From the IMG/VR virus record IMGVR_UViG_3300033150_000609, positions 1-41,073 of that record: DNA of 41,073 bases. One strand, written 5' to 3'. Below, in pieces: positions 6,216 to 41,073 of the stretch; position 1 is the stretch's first letter, and each line of letters begins with the position of its first letter. Origin of the DNA: a virus. The notes beneath the pieces were generated by a model. It made no database searches. It was not told the DNA's origin and worked only from the letters and a program-made list of their open reading frames with translations. A program made the position numbers and the translations under genes.

Positions 6216-6989
6216 TTAAAATAATTTTCTCTGCAAATTTACTAACATTTTTTCCTTCGCATCTTTGACAAAATTCTTTTTTATTTCAAATCCATATGCG
6301 TTCCTATTCAATTCAGCGGCGGCTCTCAATGTCGCACCGCTTCCAGCCACGGGGTCAATTACAACGTCGCCCTCGTCCGTATAAATTTCTATTAATCTTT
6401 TCAATATTGGAATAGATTTTTGTGTTGGATGTATTTTAGGAACAGAATTGTCTCTTTTCCATTTGAACCAATTAAAAATCATTTTTCCACCATTGTTGAA
6501 TTTCGGCAATTTATCACGATATAAAACTATAGCATGTTCTACCGCTCCCACTATTTTCATATTGGCTTTCAAAACTTGGGCGGAATAGTTTTTGATAAAA
6601 AATAAAGGCATATGATTATTAAAATCATATTTTTTCCCATAATCTATAATCATTTGCATTTGCTCAAATGCACAAAATACAATCATAGCCGGAGATAATC
6701 CTTTTTGTTTTGGTTCTTTTTTTAACATTTTAGAACAAAAATGCATATATTCCGCAATATTGAAATAGCCATCTGTATCAAAAAATGATTTGTTTGCTTT
6801 ATCTGATTCGCCTTTTTTATTGTCACCACCAACATACCACGACGGATTACTCGCATAAGCATAATTGCCCATATTATACGGTATATCCGCAATAATCAAC
6901 TGCGCTTTAGGTATCTGATAAGATTTATAATTTTGAAAATGGTCATTAAATAATTCTATTTTCGTTAATTTTTCTTGCCTTTCAATCAT
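6216..6989 (-). CDS. DNA methyltransferase, beta-class (adenine-N6 or cytosine-N4)
   Basis: 257 residues from the ATG that overlaps the upstream stop. Catalytic motif IV is ADIPYNMG (about 34-41), a DIPY variant of DPPY. The SAM-binding motif I block is near the C-terminus: KIHPTQKSIPIL, then VVIDPVAGSGATL at about 210-220 and GFEI, so the order catalytic-then-SAM marks a beta-type enzyme. It transfers methyl from SAM to DNA. No partner restriction enzyme is adjacent, so it is an orphan phage methylase, plausibly for protection against host restriction. The ORF extends 10 codons upstream, but the internal ATG fits the overlap. Confidence 0.87.
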   Translation of the reverse strand: MIERQEKLTKIELFNDHFQNYKSYQIPKAQLIIADIPYNMGNYAYASNPSWYVGGDNKKGESDKANKSFFDTDGYFNIAEYMHFCSKMLKKEPKQKGLSPAMIVFCAFEQMQMIIDYGKKYDFNNHMPLFFIKNYSAQVLKANMKIVGAVEHAIVLYRDKLPKFNNGGKMIFNWFKWKRDNSVPKIHPTQKSIPILKRLIEIYTDEGDVVIDPVAGSGATLRAAAELNRNAYGFEIKKNFVKDAKEKMLVNLQRKLF

Positions 6990-7269
6990 AAGAATACCTG
7001 TTAATATCAAACAAATCACCGTGATTATCCGGTTTCTTCCCTGCCGGTGTGTAAGGTTTCTTAATAATCCAGGTATCCGTGCTGTCGTCGTCTTTTACCT
7101 TACCGATATTCTCTACAATACCCCTCTCCGGCTCAACCATAAATCTTAAATACCTGTCGGGGCAACTCACGCCATTGAAAGAATTAAGACACGCCCTTTT
7201 TATTTCTTCGGTTCTCGCCCTGCCTCCGAGTTCCTGTAAAACTAAATATACTTTATATTCTTGTTTCAT
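6982..7269 (-). CDS. Small winged-helix-like protein (95 aa)
   Basis: 95 residues from MKQEYKVYLVLQELGGRARTEEIKR. The first 50 residues look like a winged helix (helix, GGRARTEEIKRACL, then CPDRYLRFM), and a C-terminal part KKPYTPAGKK follows. The start ATG overlaps the upstream stop (ATGA) and has GGAAAAG. It is coupled to the methylase behind it by an 8-base overlap. It may be a sequence-reading partner or regulator, but this is inference. Confidence 0.6.
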   Translation of the reverse strand: MKQEYKVYLVLQELGGRARTEEIKRACLNSFNGVSCPDRYLRFMVEPERGIVENIGKVKDDDSTDTWIIKKPYTPAGKKPDNHGDLFDINRYSYD

Positions 7270-7922: not shown

Positions 7923-8859
7923 TTTCGCCTTTCATATTTCATTATTCTTTTTCCTATCCACTCAACCACATTCACCGTAACAGCATTGCCTATTACTACT
8001 CCTCGCACAGCGTCCAGTCGTCCGAAAATCCCTGAAGGCTCTCTTTTTCGTTCGGGGTTAGTTTCCGCAATATGAGTGTCTTGCCATATAAAGGAAGTGT
8101 TGCCCCTTTTTGTTGCTCCGAGTGTTTGGCTAACGAGGTTTTCGTCTCTATTATATCTATCTCCTTTTTTCGCTTGTATTGTTTTAGCGACAATGTTTTC
8201 TCCCTCAAATTTAAAGGGGCTTCCTTGCCCGTCACGATTGACTCTAATTGTTGAAGCGACAAGAGTTTCATTTGTTGGGTCTTGGCTTGCCCCGTCTCTT
8301 GTAGAAATACATAACCCCCTCTGCCCCATTTTTTGGACCTTCTTATCATTCCCGAAACCGCCTTTTTCGTCAAATAGTATTTCGGGTGGACAGATGTTTC
8401 CAAAATATCCGACAATGAACAAACGTCTGCGTCTCTGGGCGACTCCGAAGTATTGAGAGTTAAGTATTCTCCACAAAACGCCATACCCGATTTTTTGCAA
8501 GTCGCTGATAACTTTTGAAAAGTCCCTTCCGCCATTAACGGATAAAAGCCCGGGAACATTCTCTCCAAGAAACCATTGCGGATTAAATATTCGCAAACAC
8601 CTTGCCACTTCTTCCCAGAGTCCGCTCCCTTCGTGCTGCATACCCGCCCTCTTGCCTGCGATTGAATTCCCCTGACAAGGCCACCCCGCACACAAAAGGT
8701 TGATATGTCTGTATGTTTCGGGATTTTTGGATATTGCTTTTTCAAGATTTTCAAAGCATACGGCATTATTTCTATTTGACCTTTGCACTTAAATCCCGCC
8801 CTTTCCAACCCTAAATCCATACCCCCACAACCAGAGAACAAAGATATAAAAGTTTTCAT
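7916..8859 (-). pseudogene. 5-cytosine DNA methyltransferase broken across reading frames
   Basis: Conserved C5-methylase motifs appear in order, but in two frames. The frame starting at 8859 has motif I (LFSGCGGMDLGLERAGF). The middle is in a second frame: catalytic PCQGNS, ENVPGLL and QRRRRLFIVGY. Then motif IX (ILRKLTPNEKESLQGFSDDWT) is back in the first frame, and motif X (VIGNAVTVNVVEWIGKRI) is again in the second. So at least three frame changes are needed: near 8690-8740, near 8060-8070 (one extra base at ATT-G-CGG restores HIRKLTP) and near 8000-8015. The residue quality within each piece is high. Either the gene is recently inactivated or the assembly has local indel errors. The catalytic Cys piece lacks motif I, so a functional single product is unlikely as sequenced. 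Confidence 0.85.
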
Positions 8860-14939: not shown

Positions 14940-14968
14940 AGTATAGTTTACTTTTTTTCATATGTCAA
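14940..14968 (-). promoter_or_regulatory. Sigma70-like promoter of recombination operon
   Basis: TTGACA (14963-14968) and TATACT (14940-14945) on the minus strand, spacer 17 bases. The boxes overlap the end of the MT-A70 gene. The leader to the next gene is about 110 bases and contains a hairpin with T-run. Confidence 0.82.
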
Positions 14969-15509
14969 GAGGTAAAAGTTCAATATCACTTTCAACTTCG
15001 TTTCCCCATACATGCCATTTCTTTTTTATCAATAATGATTTTCTTTCTTGACGTGCAAATATATCTATTCTGTTTCCGTCAAGAACATCAAGCATTTCAT
15101 AAAAATAATCAGGTTTTGCACTATGCCTTTCTGATTTTGCGGTAAATGCTGTCCGTATAGTTTTTCGCCTCGGGTATGCGTCGTGTTTTCCCTTAAATCC
15201 TACAAGTATAAATTCCGATTGTCTATTAAAACCATACATTGCAAGCCCATTAGTTTTATCCCAATGCATTGTAAGATGATATTTGAAACCCCACGCCTCT
15301 AATATTGATTTGCTTTCGTAAAGGTATTTATCTATTGTCCATAAAAATAGGGTGCAAATATCATCTGCTATTTTATTTATGGGTAAATTCTTAATTTCGT
15401 CAAGGGACATCATAGGGTAATCCATATTAACCTGATTAGGTCGCACCCTTTTTTTAATCTTCTTAATTTGATATGGGGGGTCAACTACTATTATCTGATA
15501 CTTTTTCAT
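14958..15509 (-). CDS. MT-A70-like adenine methyltransferase
   Basis: 183 residues from MKKYQIIVVDPPYQI (DPPY at about 10-13, the catalytic motif). Further family marks are MMSLDEIKNLPI, ICTLFLWTIDKYLYES, KYHLTMHWDKTN and IFARQERK, in the usual order of MT-A70 proteins of phages and mobile elements. It methylates adenine-N6 in DNA (or RNA). The ATG overlaps the stop of the previous gene (GGATGA) and GGAGAG is well placed. Orphan enzyme; probably protects from restriction or alters gene control. Confidence 0.87.
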   Translation of the reverse strand: MKKYQIIVVDPPYQIKKIKKRVRPNQVNMDYPMMSLDEIKNLPINKIADDICTLFLWTIDKYLYESKSILEAWGFKYHLTMHWDKTNGLAMYGFNRQSEFILVGFKGKHDAYPRRKTIRTAFTAKSERHSAKPDYFYEMLDVLDGNRIDIFARQERKSLLIKKKWHVWGNEVESDIELLPLDI

Positions 15510-15853
15510 CCCTCTACTCTCCGGCATAAAACTCGTTTTACTTTCTCCTTATTTATGATATTTTCAACAATCCAATAGCACACTTCATTGTTATTTCTAT
15601 ATGTTTCCGTGGTATCGTGGCGAAATTTTTGTTCTCCATTTTTATCATATATTGTTAGTATATTCCCTGAATACATAATTCGTCCCGGTCGCCGCAATCT
15701 TGAATGTCCGACTTTAGTATCCTTAACAATTCCCTCTATATGCTCTACTTTTGCCACACAATCACTATTTTCATTTACCCATTTCGCCAATTTCTTTATA
15801 GAAGGGGCTTTAACAATTCCCATTTTAGCCGACAAAATAATGTTTTCGTTCAT
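15506..15853 (-). CDS. Hypothetical protein (115 aa)
   Basis: 115 residues. N-terminal part (APSIKKLAKWVNENSD), middle beta (RLRRPGRIMYSGNILTIYD) and EKVKRVLCRRVEG at the end. A GAGAGGAGG precedes the ATG. It lies next to the ACP and methylase genes. The family is not recognised. Confidence 0.6.
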   Translation of the reverse strand: MNENIILSAKMGIVKAPSIKKLAKWVNENSDCVAKVEHIEGIVKDTKVGHSRLRRPGRIMYSGNILTIYDKNGEQKFRHDTTETYRNNNEVCYWIVENIINKEKVKRVLCRRVEG

Positions 15854-15903
15854 CTCAAACCTCCTCTCTCCGGCATAATTCGGGGTTCTCGTTCTGTTTT
15901 CAT
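15850..15903 (-). CDS. Very short ORF (17 aa), possible coupling peptide
   Basis: A 17-codon frame (MKTEREPRIMPERGGLR) joined by ATGA overlaps to both the ACP stop and the 115-aa start. It holds the ribosome site of the next gene. It may be a translated coupler or chance. Confidence 0.25.
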   Translation of the reverse strand: MKTEREPRIMPERGGLR

Positions 15904-16145
15904 AACATCTCCTTTTTTACACATTCAACTATTTTATTGATAGTGTTGAATTTTTTCTCTTTACCGTCGGGGATTTCAATACAAAATTTATCTTCAATGT
16001 TTATTATAATCTCTACTAAATCTAATGAATCTGCCCTAAAGCCAGATTTGAATGTTATATCAGAATTAATATCTGATACTTTGACGTTAAAATGTTCGGC
16101 AACTACTTTTTTAACTCTTTCCTCAATTTGCAATTCTTCTTTCAT
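15900..16145 (-). CDS. acpP: Acyl carrier protein
   Basis: 81 residues, the usual ACP length. Four-helix layout: EERVKKVVAEHFNVKVSDI, then GFRADSLDLVEIIINIEDKF with the phosphopantetheine-attaching Ser at about 40 in a DSL motif, and a C-terminal helix INKIVECVKKEML. It is strongly acidic around the DSL helix. GGGGGAATT is upstream. In bacteria ACP carries acyl chains for lipids and other products; an autonomous phage copy is unusual. No acyltransferase or synthase is adjacent, so a host 4'-phosphopantetheinyl transferase and partner enzymes would be needed. The genuine substrate is unknown. Confidence 0.85.
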   Translation of the reverse strand: MKEELQIEERVKKVVAEHFNVKVSDINSDITFKSGFRADSLDLVEIIINIEDKFCIEIPDGKEKKFNTINKIVECVKKEML

Positions 16146-16215
16146 AATTCCCCCTTATCAATAATAACTTGACCCTCCACTCCCCAGCGTTTCTGTAATC
16201 CCGCATAATGCCAAA

Positions 16216-17022
16216 TCAATAAAATTTCAATAATTTTCCAAGTTTCGCTTTTATTTCCCCATAAGGTTTTCTATCAATAAGAATCAACTTTATATTAGGG
16301 TAGTAAATTTTCATTCTTTTTAATTGTGTTTTACTTCTTTTTGTCATCCATCCTTTTACTTCGTGATATTCAAAACTTCCATCGTTGTTAGCAATCTTAA
16401 AATCTGGGCGATAACTTCTTGTCCCAAATTTTATTTTCTCAAAAATAAATATATCCTTTTCATATTCCCAACTTTTAATCATTTTTCGCTTTATTAAAAA
16501 GTCAAGATATAATGCATAATTTGCCTCCCAACCACTTCTTAAAAATATCTTTTTACCATTTATATCATAAGTTCCTTTTTTAATATTGCCAAAAACTTTG
16601 CCCCTTCCTCCCACTAAATGAGAGGGCAACTTTCCAACCATTTTATCTCTTAATATTTTTCTTTTATATACGCTTTTATTCGCACATATTGCTGAACAAT
16701 AAAAATATTTTTGCATTATTTTTACTCTATATCGTCTTGTATAAATTACTTTTCCACAAGTAGCACAAAGTTTTTTTATTTTTCCACCTTCCCAATGAGC
16801 ACCCTTTTTACCCTTTCGTGATTTAGCAACACAACTTTGAGAACAAAATTTTCTTTTAACTGCACGGCTTTTGAATTTTTTGCCACAATATCTACAAATA
16901 AAAGTTTTGCATTTATCACACCTTTTTTGGAAATTAGAATTGGGTATATAGTATTCCCCACACATTATACATTTCTTCATACGGGGCTTCGGGACGGGAT
17001 TGATTGAATAATGATTTATCAT
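16216..17022 (-). CDS. Zinc-finger PD-(D/E)XK endonuclease, homing-like
   Basis: 268 residues from MINHYSINPVPKPRMKKC with GGGAGGAATAGG ahead of the ATG. Residues about 15-125 hold four or five CxxC zinc motifs (CIMCG, CDKC, CRYCG, CSQSC, CATCG, CSAIC), with AHWEGG between. The C-terminal 110 residues have RSGWEANYALYLDFL, WEYEKDIF, YRPDF and YHEVKG, i.e. the E, D and E-x-K of a PD-(D/E)XK nuclease fold. Mobile endonucleases and phage DNA-cleaving factors share this mix. It is not interrupting a gene here. Activity and target unknown. Confidence 0.72.
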   Translation of the reverse strand: MINHYSINPVPKPRMKKCIMCGEYYIPNSNFQKRCDKCKTFICRYCGKKFKSRAVKRKFCSQSCVAKSRKGKKGAHWEGGKIKKLCATCGKVIYTRRYRVKIMQKYFYCSAICANKSVYKRKILRDKMVGKLPSHLVGGRGKVFGNIKKGTYDINGKKIFLRSGWEANYALYLDFLIKRKMIKSWEYEKDIFIFEKIKFGTRSYRPDFKIANNDGSFEYHEVKGWMTKRSKTQLKRMKIYYPNIKLILIDRKPYGEIKAKLGKLLKFY

Positions 17023-35682: not shown

Positions 35683-36210
35683 TTACTCCTTTATCAGTAA
35701 ACCTATTCCATATTGAACCCCATCCTGCCACATATTAAAAGTTATACACGGATATTGTTTTGAAATTTCTTTCCAAAATCTTCCAATTCTGTTATTCTGT
35801 TTCGGGTAAGTATCTATATCGTGAAATACAATAATATTCTTCGTTAACAAACCGTATATTTCGTATTCCAGTTTTGCATCTTCGTAAAAATGCAGTGCAT
35901 CAATAAAAAGAAGATTTATTTTTTTCCCATTAAGCATTTTTTTCAACATTTCTAATGTTTCCCGTTTGTGTATATCCCCTTGTATATCCGAATATCCATT
36001 CTTATCAATCCCGATATGCCTTGCGCTTAATAATTGTTCATAGAATTTCTTCTGCCGGTTTTGATATGTTCCCAGTTCCACAATAACAGGATTTTCTATA
36101 TCCCTGTTTTTGAAATACCCTTCTATAAATTCAAGAAATAATTTCCATTCCCACGGGTTCTGCATAGGTTGTCCCTCTTTCATCAAGGCATTAAATAATT
36201 CAATGTTCAT
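35683..36210 (-). CDS. Class I methyltransferase, CmcI/Methyltransf_24-like (175 aa)
   Basis: 175 residues from MNIELFNALM (ATG overlaps the epimerase stop). SAM-binding region VIVELGTYQNRQ, then GIDKNGYSDIQGDIH, LLFIDALHFYEDAKLEYE (the FIDA acidic motif) and IIVFHDIDTYPK. It could O-methylate the sugar made by the neighbouring enzymes. It closes the carbohydrate cassette. Confidence 0.72.
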   Translation of the reverse strand: MNIELFNALMKEGQPMQNPWEWKLFLEFIEGYFKNRDIENPVIVELGTYQNRQKKFYEQLLSARHIGIDKNGYSDIQGDIHKRETLEMLKKMLNGKKINLLFIDALHFYEDAKLEYEIYGLLTKNIIVFHDIDTYPKQNNRIGRFWKEISKQYPCITFNMWQDGVQYGIGLLIKE

Positions 36211-37208
36211 ATCGTTTTTGCCTTCCACGTTTCCGGCGTTTTATCATTTATAATTTCCACTTCCAAATGATAATCAAAGGGCTTGCTACCCCTTTCCTTA
36301 ATCCAATCTATCATCTTTTTTATGCCATTCTTTAAAGTATATTGTGTTTCATAACCGAGCATCTCTCGTGCTTTATCAGATGAACAAGTTGCATATTTTA
36401 CTTCCTGTTCCCGTGCAGGCACATAAATAGGATATAAATCAAAGTTCAATAATTCTGCTATCAATACCGCCAAATCGTTTACCGCTACAAACTGTTCATC
36501 CGAACCTACGTTGATTATTTCGCCAACTATATTTTTTTGAGTTGCCATTTTACTTAATGGATTTATGCAGTCCTGCACGAATACGAAACATCTTTTCTGT
36601 TCTCCATTCCCGTAAATTATCGGCTGCTTTCCCTGTAACATTCTATTTATAAATATGCTCGCCACATTCCTAAAAGGGTCATCATATTTTTGCCTCTGTC
36701 CAATAATGTTATGCGGGACTGCAATTACATATTCAAATCCGTGAACCCCAGCCATAACTTCAACCAATTTTTCACTCGCTACTTTTGAAATAGCATAAGG
36801 GTCTTGCGGTTTCGGTTTCATATCTTCCGTGAAAGGAACTGCATTTTCACCGTATCTCGCCATTGACGAAAGGAAAATAAAACGCTTACCCCTGTTCTGA
36901 ATAAATGCGGATAATACCGTTGATGTCGCCTGATAAATTGATTTATTAACTACGCTCGGAGAGAAAACGCTCAATCCTTCGTGAGCATACGCCGCACAAT
37001 GATACAGCACGTCCACATTTTTTATTATTTTTTGCATATCCTTCAAGTTCGTGCAGTCGGCAAAATAACATCTTGCGCCTTTCGGGACGTTTTCTGTATA
37101 TCCCCCTGTCAAATTATCACATCCCTCTACTTCGTATCCCAGAGCAAGCATAGCGTCCGCCAAATGACTACCTAAAAAACCCGCAATACCTGTTATAAAA
37201 ACTTTCAT
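36207..37208 (-). CDS. NAD-dependent sugar epimerase/dehydratase (SDR)
   Basis: 333 residues from MKVFITG (ATG overlaps GT2 stop). Rossmann motif TGIAGFLGSH (about 6-15), DNL after the second strand, catalytic SS (114-115) and YAISK (Tyr 138, Lys 142). It contains the GDP/UDP/dTDP-sugar type region NIIGQRQKYDDPFRNVASIFINRMLQG. It interconverts or dehydrates a nucleotide sugar. The complete catalytic set suggests an active enzyme. Located among glycosyltransferases in the capsid operon. Confidence 0.87.
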   Translation of the reverse strand: MKVFITGIAGFLGSHLADAMLALGYEVEGCDNLTGGYTENVPKGARCYFADCTNLKDMQKIIKNVDVLYHCAAYAHEGLSVFSPSVVNKSIYQATSTVLSAFIQNRGKRFIFLSSMARYGENAVPFTEDMKPKPQDPYAISKVASEKLVEVMAGVHGFEYVIAVPHNIIGQRQKYDDPFRNVASIFINRMLQGKQPIIYGNGEQKRCFVFVQDCINPLSKMATQKNIVGEIINVGSDEQFVAVNDLAVLIAELLNFDLYPIYVPAREQEVKYATCSSDKAREMLGYETQYTLKNGIKKMIDWIKERGSKPFDYHLEVEIINDKTPETWKAKTI

Positions 37209-37828
37209 CTTAATTTCCTTGAATCCCTGCCCCATAAAAGACCATCCGCTTTTCTTTCACGCCAAATCTGTAAATCTGAACTTGAATTTTGTTTCCTTGA
37301 ATTTATATGTGTATCATCCATTTCATTTTTGAAAAGTGCGGGATGATAATGCGTAACTTTTGCATCTTCCCCGTATTTGAATTTATTTATGCTTTCCGCA
37401 AAGGTTTGCAATTCTGCGTCTGCGTGAAAAATCTTGTAATCAGGGCAGAAGCATCGCCTTTCAGGAAACCTATCCGCAAACTTTCTTCCGACCAATCCAA
37501 CGCCGCCCTTGCGCCCCTGTTCCATATTACTTTGATTTAATGTAACCATTCCGTCGGTATCAGGGAAATTATCAACCATACATTTAACTGCCTTTTCTAT
37601 ACAATCAGGGAAAAGTTTAATATCATCATTTAACCAGAATATAATATCCGCTGTTGAAGTCCTGATATATTTATTCCAGATACCGAAAACAAACAGCCGG
37701 TTATAATCAGATTCAATAAAAATCCTGTAAAAAGTAGTTTTCAAATAACTGTTATCCAAAATAGAACAGAGGCATCTTTTTAATTTCTGTTCTCGTTTGT
37801 AAGTTGCTATCACAATGTCAATCTTCAT
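37205..37828 (-). CDS. Glycosyltransferase family 2-like (207 aa)
   Basis: 207 residues: MKIDIVIATYKREQKLKRCL (donor-site start), ADIIFWLNDDIKLFPDCIEKAV (D-D acidic pair) and a C-terminal helical part. The GT-A fold is truncated compared with typical 250-300 aa GT2 enzymes but keeps both donor motifs. Its ATG overlaps the DUF115-GT stop by 11 bases. It transfers a sugar, probably on to a virion or cell glycan. Confidence 0.75.
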   Translation of the reverse strand: MKIDIVIATYKREQKLKRCLCSILDNSYLKTTFYRIFIESDYNRLFVFGIWNKYIRTSTADIIFWLNDDIKLFPDCIEKAVKCMVDNFPDTDGMVTLNQSNMEQGRKGGVGLVGRKFADRFPERRCFCPDYKIFHADAELQTFAESINKFKYGEDAKVTHYHPALFKNEMDDTHINSRKQNSSSDLQIWRERKADGLLWGRDSRKLR

Positions 37829-39218
37829 TTTTTAATCTCCTGCTTGCCTGAAAAAGTTCTACTGTCGGCTCGCCTGCCGCTTTCATCAAATCAAAAATCT
37901 GCGAATAAGAAGCGTCAAATTCTTCCAGTGTAATTTCGTTCTTTGCGACCATTTCTTTTAAGACCTCTCCGAAATTAACTTCCTCACCGCAATCATAATG
38001 TTCTGTATTTTTATTTCTTGCAATCCATTTATCCAGAAAGTGTTTTGTTCTTTGATTATTTTTCAGGTATATTACCGCATTCCCGTATTGTTTTTTCGTG
38101 CTGTTCCGATATTTAGACCAGTCAATAATATGTATTCCAATATCCGCCTTGAAATTATTAAACCTGTCAGGATATTTCTGTATTACAGCGTCGGAATCAA
38201 GCCACGCAATATCCCGTCCCCAGTGCTTATCCAGCATTTCCCGCATAAAAACTGCTTTATGATAAGTATTTGTTTGCCAATCACCTTTTGATTTTACTCC
38301 CTGTAAATCATATTCAAAACCGAATTTTTTAATTGACCTTTCAAGATTTTTTATTTCCTTTTCATAGCCGGTATTTTCCGTGTAGAATGATACAATTATC
38401 GGTCTTGTAATTTTTTCAATATCTTTTGTCTTTCCAAACTCAAAACATTTCAAAGCACTTGTCTCACTTAAATTTACCACCCTGAAACCCCTGTCCTGTA
38501 TTTCAACGGACGCCCTTTCAAAATTCTCAATCATATGTTCAAAAATACTTTCCCCTTGATTTAACGGGTATCCGTCGTGCCACCATACCTGTTTACCGTT
38601 CCCATCGCCCTTCATATCGTATCCTAAAAGATAAATGGGGTTTGCGCCTAAACACATAGCCAGATTTAACGCCGCATAGCCGGAATTTGAACCGTGCCCG
38701 ATTCCGTCTTTGAGCGATGATGTCAACATTTTTTCACCGGCGCTATCCACCTGATAAACAGCGTTAGGGTATCTGTATCTGAAAAAATTAAGCCATACCT
38801 TGAACCCTTTATAATCTTCAAACTTTTTTTGCACATCTTCACCCAAAGCACCCTGTATAATCCATTCGTAAAATCTTGAATCCGTTGAAAATAAAATTGA
38901 CGGTGAGATTTTCATAAAGGACATATTTACCCCGATTGTCAATTCACCTTTCAGTATTCTCCAGTCAAAACCTTTCAAACTCTTGCCCCCACCGACAATA
39001 AAACATCGCTGTCCTTTCCATATATTATCCGCTATAAAATCCGCAAAATTATTCGGACTATCTTTCGTAATAATATCCCGCCTGTTATTCATCATATCTG
39101 ACATTAACCTCAATTCTGCCCAGTTTGCCGCCACATCGGACATTTTAATACATTCATCGGGTTTGCTTTTTTTCTCTCTGCCCCTTTCCGCCAAGTCGGA
39201 CATATTTATTATACCCAT
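37818..39218 (-). CDS. MptE/DUF115-like domain fused to a glycosyltransferase (466 aa)
   Basis: 466 residues, two domains. About 70-255 is the MptE/DUF115 fold (RCFIVGGGKSLKGFDW, GHGSNSGYAALNLAMCLGANPIYLLGYDM, WHDGYPLN), found in pterin enzymes and in glycan-building proteins. About 270-460 is a nucleotide-sugar transferase (IIVSFYTENTGYEKEIKNL, GRDIAWLDSDAVI with D-S-D, CGEEVNFGEVLKEM). The pairing with GT2, epimerase and methyltransferase shows a sugar-transfer role. Acceptor unknown. Confidence 0.78.
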   Translation of the reverse strand: MGIINMSDLAERGREKKSKPDECIKMSDVAANWAELRLMSDMMNNRRDIITKDSPNNFADFIADNIWKGQRCFIVGGGKSLKGFDWRILKGELTIGVNMSFMKISPSILFSTDSRFYEWIIQGALGEDVQKKFEDYKGFKVWLNFFRYRYPNAVYQVDSAGEKMLTSSLKDGIGHGSNSGYAALNLAMCLGANPIYLLGYDMKGDGNGKQVWWHDGYPLNQGESIFEHMIENFERASVEIQDRGFRVVNLSETSALKCFEFGKTKDIEKITRPIIVSFYTENTGYEKEIKNLERSIKKFGFEYDLQGVKSKGDWQTNTYHKAVFMREMLDKHWGRDIAWLDSDAVIQKYPDRFNNFKADIGIHIIDWSKYRNSTKKQYGNAVIYLKNNQRTKHFLDKWIARNKNTEHYDCGEEVNFGEVLKEMVAKNEITLEEFDASYSQIFDLMKAAGEPTVELFQASRRLKNED

Positions 39219-39622
39219 TATTTTATGCCGCCCTGCGTTTTCCTTTCAATATCATTCTCATCCAAAAATGCCTGATAAATTTCAATGCACTGAACATCTG
39301 ACTTCGCTTCAAATTTATGCAAAACCCCGCACGGAACTTCCATTACCCCGCCTGCCTGTAATTCTGTTTTATCTTCAATACCGCTATTAAAGATAGAGAC
39401 GATTAAAATCCCTGAAATGATATAAAAAAGATTAACCTTGTTTTTATGTTTATGTTCCGAGCAGTAACCGCCCTTTTTTATATCAAGGTAATGAACCGAG
39501 ACCGCATCATTGCTGTAAATCTTTGTTGTCTCTCCCCAGATTTTTCCCTGCTTATCTATAAGCATTATTGTATTCCCTGCGTGGAGAAGGGCAGAACGCT
39601 CATAACGCTTGCCCCTCTCCAC
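39218..39622 (-). CDS. Cupin-fold protein (134 aa)
   Basis: 134 residues. Cupin barrel with metal-site residues EHKHK (about 56-60), YIISGILIVSIF and PCGVLHKFEA. Cupins of this size in sugar cassettes are epimerases or isomerases of nucleotide sugars, or binders. GTG at 39622 is used; an ATG 19 codons downstream with AGGG is an alternative. First gene of the cassette, 16 bases behind the capsid gene. Confidence 0.75.
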   Translation of the reverse strand: MERGKRYERSALLHAGNTIMLIDKQGKIWGETTKIYSNDAVSVHYLDIKKGGYCSEHKHKNKVNLFYIISGILIVSIFNSGIEDKTELQAGGVMEVPCGVLHKFEAKSDVQCIEIYQAFLDENDIERKTQGGIK

Positions 39623-40664: not shown

Positions 40665-41018
40665 TTACGCCGCTACATTCCCCTTCAAATCAATCAGCAA
40701 AGTCGTAGCCAGCGCCGCACTGACTTCCAGCGCCCTTCCGCAAAGCGTATTACCGCTTGCAGAGTTTGTTACCGTTGACGTTGATGCGTTGAAATATACC
40801 TTATCACCGACAGCGAAAATTACTCCGCTGAAAGCTGTTTTCGGCACGACTATCTTCTCCGCTGAATAAATAAGAACTGCGTTTTTTCCCACAGCCGTCG
40901 CTTCTACAATCACACCGACCTTGTCCTCTACCTTTACCATATCCCCCGCTGCATATCCTCCGCTGGGCGCTGTGATTATAACACTCGCAAAAATATTCGT
41001 TCTTAATTCAAGTCCCAT
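40665..41018 (-). CDS. Capsid cement/decoration protein (DUF2190-like, 117 aa)
   Basis: 117 residues: an N-terminal segment (MGLELRTNIFASVIITAPSGGYAAGD), beta barrel (KVEDKVGVIVEATAVGKNAVLIYSAEKIVVPK) and VGDKVYFNASTSTV...GNTLCGRALEVSAALATTLLIDLKG. This is the DUF2190 pattern of small capsid-stabilising proteins. GGGAGG precedes the ATG. Its start lies in the terminal repeat; it abuts the capsid gene. Confidence 0.85.
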   Translation of the reverse strand: MGLELRTNIFASVIITAPSGGYAAGDMVKVEDKVGVIVEATAVGKNAVLIYSAEKIVVPKTAFSGVIFAVGDKVYFNASTSTVTNSASGNTLCGRALEVSAALATTLLIDLKGNVAA

Positions 41019-41073
41019 TTTAATACACCTCCCTTACTTTTTTTTCTTTTCTTTTTCTTCCAAGACAGCGATT
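40960..41073. repeat. Exact terminal direct repeat, right copy
   Basis: 114 bases identical to 1-114, counted base by base including the eight-T run. It contains the first part of the cement gene and the end of the 49-aa gene. See the left copy. Confidence 0.95.

Follow-up and report, generated by a model that had tools for sequence, protein, structure and literature searches.

An acyl carrier protein gene as apparently exchangeable cargo in the early region of a 41-kb phage

The window—the whole 41,073-nt stretch of viral DNA analyzed here—encodes a genuine stand-alone acyl carrier protein (ACP), and comparison with relatives indicates that its gene is exchangeable cargo in an early-region slot that keeps conserved edges and holds other genes elsewhere. 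We give evenly balanced credence to the reading that the protein is optional cargo acting as a functional orphan carrier, charged by host AcpS and engaging host acyl-ACP enzymes. Many phages carry orphan ACPs, apparently with no loading or synthase enzymes of their own; the present gene would be an example of one moving as slot cargo, and it argues against dependence of the phage's glycan cassette on such an ACP.

Profile searches, the structural model, and the DSLD serine agree on the identity of the product. Its translation, MKEELQIEERVKKVVAEHFNVKVSDINSDITFKSGFRADSLDLVEIIINIEDKFCIEIPDGKEKKFNTINKIVECVKKEML, matched the Pfam PP-binding family (PF00550; E 2.3e-7, 31.4 bits against a cut-off of 20.8), the PHROGs family phrog_5934 "acyl carrier protein" (E 9e-17), and, by a narrow margin, NCBIfam NF002150 (PRK00982 subfamily model; 66.5 bits against 66). 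The AcpP equivalog TIGR00517 scored 68.9 bits, 1.5 bits below its cut-off of 70.45. Searching the PDB by sequence returned 100 distinct sequences at E ≤ 1e-3, the best of them an E. coli ACP chain (5.6e-13). An AlphaFold2 model (pLDDT 88.2) is predicted to contain the ACP helices in a helical-bundle fold, and its top PDB matches in Foldseek are ACPs (TM 0.8–0.9). The phosphopantetheine serine is Ser40, within ADSLD, and aligns with a serine in 65/69 viral and 76/76 cellular ACPs. The description first given, of a standard ACP carrying the DSL serine, is thus confirmed. Likeness to bacterial AcpP, including that of E. coli, extends to an IEERVKK helix 1, the motifs ADSLDxVE and EIPD, a Thr before helix IV, and a predicted fold about 1–1.6 Å from solved AcpP structures; differences lie in the absence of a fab operon context and in charge, treated below.

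Table 1. Features at and around the ACP gene, in window coordinates
Feature	Coordinates	Strand	Evidence or remarks
MT-A70 type DNA methyltransferase, following the orphan gene	14958..15527	minus	PF05063 E 1.5e-24; phrog_359
Slot boundary motif, 24 bp, TTATGCCGGAGAGTAGAGGGATGA	15506..15529	minus	Identical in relative G001 at L094 11513..11536
115-aa orphan protein, immediately downstream of ACP	15506..15853	minus	Between two exact copies of TTATGCCGGAGAG (15517-15529 and 15866-15878)
Acyl carrier protein gene, 81 aa	15900..16145	minus	PF00550, phrog_5934, NCBIfam, PDB sequence and fold matches
3' remnant of RusA gene, HYAGLQKRWGVEGQVIIDKGEL and stop	16143..16208	minus	83-bp match to intact RusA-like gene of G001
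Zinc-ribbon plus DUF1064/PD-(D/E)XK nuclease ORF	16216..17022	minus	PF06356 E 7.9e-6; phrog_190 Holliday junction resolvase E 2.4e-12

The gene lies, as first proposed, amid DNA-metabolism genes with no lipid enzyme near: Pfam and PHROGs searches identify its neighbors as the DUF1064/PD-(D/E)XK nuclease, the MT-A70 methyltransferase, exonucleases, and a Rad52-like protein. No ketosynthase or AcpS family match was found anywhere in the 41-kb record, a search (PF01648 for phosphopantetheinyl transferases) that divergent transferases could escape; the AcpS and ketosynthase searches were positive in 10/14 and 14/14 control genomes, respectively. The record has identical 114-bp ends (1-114 and 40960-41073), as does its closest complete relative, G001 (41,198 bp), which suggests that both genomes are complete. 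The two are collinear over most of their length and their TerL proteins are 96% identical; among named phages, the best TerL match is Thermoanaerobacterium phage THSA-485A, at only 36% identity. Late genes are mostly conserved between the window and G001, the glycan cassette included. This cassette (35683-39622) is flanked by a capsid-like gene on one side and by minor head genes on the other.

Comparison with G001 locates the ACP gene in a region of differing content. Neither protein nor family searches found an ACP in G001, and none of the window genes between 12.8 and 17.4 kb is matched there over its full length: the MT-A70 methyltransferase has no match, and the nuclease ORF has only partial ones. 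At the upstream edge, the RusA remnant (a name read from the sequence, not taken from a family search) is 86.7% identical to the G001 gene (L094 10829..11194), with the match stopping at the first ACP codons. Its TGA overlaps the ATG of the ACP gene in the sequence ATGA; in G001 the RusA-like gene overlaps a 93-aa Cys-rich ORF through the same ATGA. The nuclease ORF keeps a RusA-like N-terminus, MINHYSINPVPKPRM, whose first 15 residues differ from G001 by one substitution. The RusA-like gene was apparently replaced or interrupted by the zinc-ribbon–DUF1064 nuclease ORF, leaving a tail remnant.

At the downstream edge stands the 24-bp motif, for which shuffled sequences gave an expectation of 0. 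It is a longer form of the 13-bp repeat flanking the orphan gene and, being common to the window and G001, may mark a recombination boundary. A contig scan found its first 19 bases in two further contigs, both of which may be incomplete and neither of which has an ACP match; in each, a different ORF precedes the motif and ends in a RusA-tail-like Lys-Gly-Glu-Leu stop context. Because these conserved edges—the ATGA/RusA tail on one side and the 24-bp motif on the other—enclose differing contents in relatives, we read the ACP gene as exchangeable cargo. Base composition may fit later arrival: GC content is 28% for the ACP gene and 29% for the adjacent nuclease ORF against a gene mean of 37.5%, a difference that is suggestive only. 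The 115-aa orphan was considered as a co-traveling ACP partner and rejected, since it matched no family above cut-off and searches of viral contigs and of phage records gave no relative.

Origin was examined through sequence relatives. Among viral ACPs, none above about 47% identity was found; an exact-peptide scan of 84,980 genomes yielded a single full-length relative, at 41%, and identity reached at most 46% in about 700 genomes of three phyla. These values speak against recent capture from a sampled host, though an unsampled host may be the source. Matches to the ACP of "Acinetobacter phage MD-2021a" were set aside, as the stretch is bacterial chromosome: under that title, CAKLQH020000007.1 carries fabD, fabG, acpP, rpmF, and scpAB, and the ACP gene there does not belong to a phage.

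Charge sets the window ACP apart. We compared it with 69 distinct sequences from the viral collection, a few of which may derive from misclassified bacterial DNA, and with 76 cellular sequences picked by similarity to it. At net −3 (pI 5.2) it is the least acidic of the 146, lacking the strong acidity of AcpP (about −15); the remaining viral ACPs lie between −19 and −6, and the cellular set between −23 and −8. The bulk of the difference arises in loop 1 (net 0 against medians of −4 viral and −6 cellular) and loop 2/helix III (net 0 against medians of −4), where a Lys occupies a helix III position that is Glu in AcpP; helix II, at −3 against −5, keeps most of its acids. Of the positions strongly conserved across the viral and cellular sets, the DSLD motif, Asp42, Glu45, Glu51, Asp60, and Thr68 are retained, and four are changed: Gly35 (usually Asp), Phe36 (Leu), Arg37 (Gly), and Ile48 (Met). 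The lowered acidity may weaken the usual electrostatic contacts with partners, which counts against the reading as a host-charged carrier. In the ACP tree its terminal branch, 32nd of 146 in rank, is of no exceptional length, and weak support gives the protein no firm placement.

Phage ACPs are a known kind and not unusual, and the window adds another example. Roseobacter prophages carry acpP, three of them reportedly with fabF and fabG (PMC8224337); the ACP of Erythrobacter phage R6L (ORF32) is of a function called unclear (PMC5463345), that of Alteromonas phage R22Y (gp30) of a function only predicted (PMC11705849), and an ACP of Erwinia jumbo phages was detected by mass spectrometry (PMC7760394). 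Several phage ACPs are reported as auxiliary metabolic genes whose function is unclear, and no tested function for orphan ones turned up in the literature searched. With ACPs widespread in phages and several already published, the degree of surprise is moderate, below what the first-pass annotation had proposed. The window ACP resembles published examples (phrog_5934; Achromobacter phage Motura, R6L ORF32, R22Y gp30; the named phages are likened by their ACP description, not by phrog_5934 membership) in being a stand-alone ACP in a phage genome, and differs in its phage, slot, and neighbors, in its distance from every viral ACP found, and in its low acidity. The fabG-acpP-fabF clusters of Roseobacter prophages are likewise phage-borne, but the window phage has no recognized lipid enzymes.

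An alignment-based scan of IMG/VR contigs found at least 234 stretches encoding ACP relatives, a recurrence that argues for repeated benefit. In 44 other ACP-bearing viral records, fragments included, no PF01648 (AcpS) or ketosynthase family match was detected. A conserved partner gene was sought among neighbors and rejected, these being heterogeneous (the commonest Pfam families account for 3/116 neighbors each). In five related contigs (L031, L037, L059, L061, and L065; ACP at or near 8001), the ACP gene immediately follows that of an SbcC/gp46-like ATPase within a replication/repair operon, a pairing that recalls the AcpP–MukB link; these gene names are read from the sequence. The serine is absent from 4/69 distinct viral ACPs, with the motifs ADW (L014 8001-8243), ADDQD (L027 346-582), GDALD (L070 7995-8213), and MDDID (L091 7983-8225) in its place; a similar protein in L034 retains it. 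Two of the four lie on contigs with phage-family matches to ribonucleotide reductase and a RecE-like exonuclease. Such serine-less proteins cannot act as ordinary acyl carriers, and through them the need of phage ACPs for acyl carriage could be tested directly.

For the window, the favored account of a host-charged carrier would run as follows. The gene, probably derived from a bacterial AcpP-like protein, would enter the exchangeable slot as optional cargo; after infection, an early transcript would supply the protein, whose start codon overlaps the RusA-remnant stop. Because the phage genome has no recognized AcpS-family gene, host AcpS would convert the protein to its holo form at Ser40. 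Through the largely kept helix II, holo phage ACP could enter the host acyl-ACP network and alter or compete with host acyl-ACP traffic, whether by supplying or by diverting acyl groups.

A fairly unlikely alternative is a moonlighting role, in which the ACP would be the protein partner of a machine that acts on nucleic acids or on something else other than lipids, and its location among recombination genes would be functional. MukB binds AcpP and is stimulated alike by the apo and holo forms (PMC8602292). The setting in a recombination/modification module fits such a role, as do the unusual charge pattern, the serine-less viral ACPs, and the several viral ACPs in DNA replication/repair operons, one contig group beside the SbcC-like ATPase. 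However, DNA genes are common in early regions in general, so co-location weighs little; the neighbors of viral ACPs vary, no SMC-like gene was identified in the window, and acidic helix II, the MukB-binding element, is somewhat reduced. With its serine retained and no partner identified, the window ACP is not one for which we favor this role.

Two further possibilities draw on the residue pattern, and we regard each as improbable. The phage ACP might act as a decoy or inhibitor, sequestering phosphopantetheine or the host enzymes that bind ACP and so shutting down host lipid or envelope synthesis; it is an orphan without enzymes of its own, and it combines an altered loop 1 and helix III with a retained serine and most of helix II. 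Overproduction of ACP is harmful in E. coli, which we count toward this possibility. Alternatively, and with like improbability, the loss of acids from loop 1 and helix III might reflect remodeling to bind a new partner in the infection machinery, placing the window ACP in a class of phage orphan-ACP regulators that includes the serine-less members. If so, such ACPs would work as protein regulators, not as fatty-acid carriers.

A shade more improbable again is a recent acquisition that has no function, the gene being a passenger that is neutral or in decay. Its low GC, shared with the nuclease neighbor, and the changes at positions 35, 36, 37, and 48 point that way, as does its absence from relatives. 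The first-pass annotation had set lack of conservation in relatives, along with absence of serine modification, against its proposal, and the former is largely what we find: the ACP is missing from one complete relative and from two more that may be partial. The serine is intact. The frame and predicted fold are likewise intact, the terminal branch is unexceptional, and many phages have ACPs, all of which speak against a passenger.

The suggestion that the ACP feeds acyl groups to the glycan cassette is scarcely credible and was rejected: although both occur in one genome and the cassette encodes a sugar-nucleotide epimerase, a GT2 glycosyltransferase, a sialyltransferase-like protein, a cupin, and a possible methyltransferase, it lies 20 kb from the ACP gene, contains no recognized acyltransferase, and is kept whole (63–97% amino-acid identity) in the ACP-less G001, so that the cassette does not depend on the ACP. 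As a separate observation, the 41-kb phage encodes three types of DNA methyltransferase: N4/N6 (6216-7019), C5 (7996-8859), and the MT-A70 enzyme near the ACP gene.
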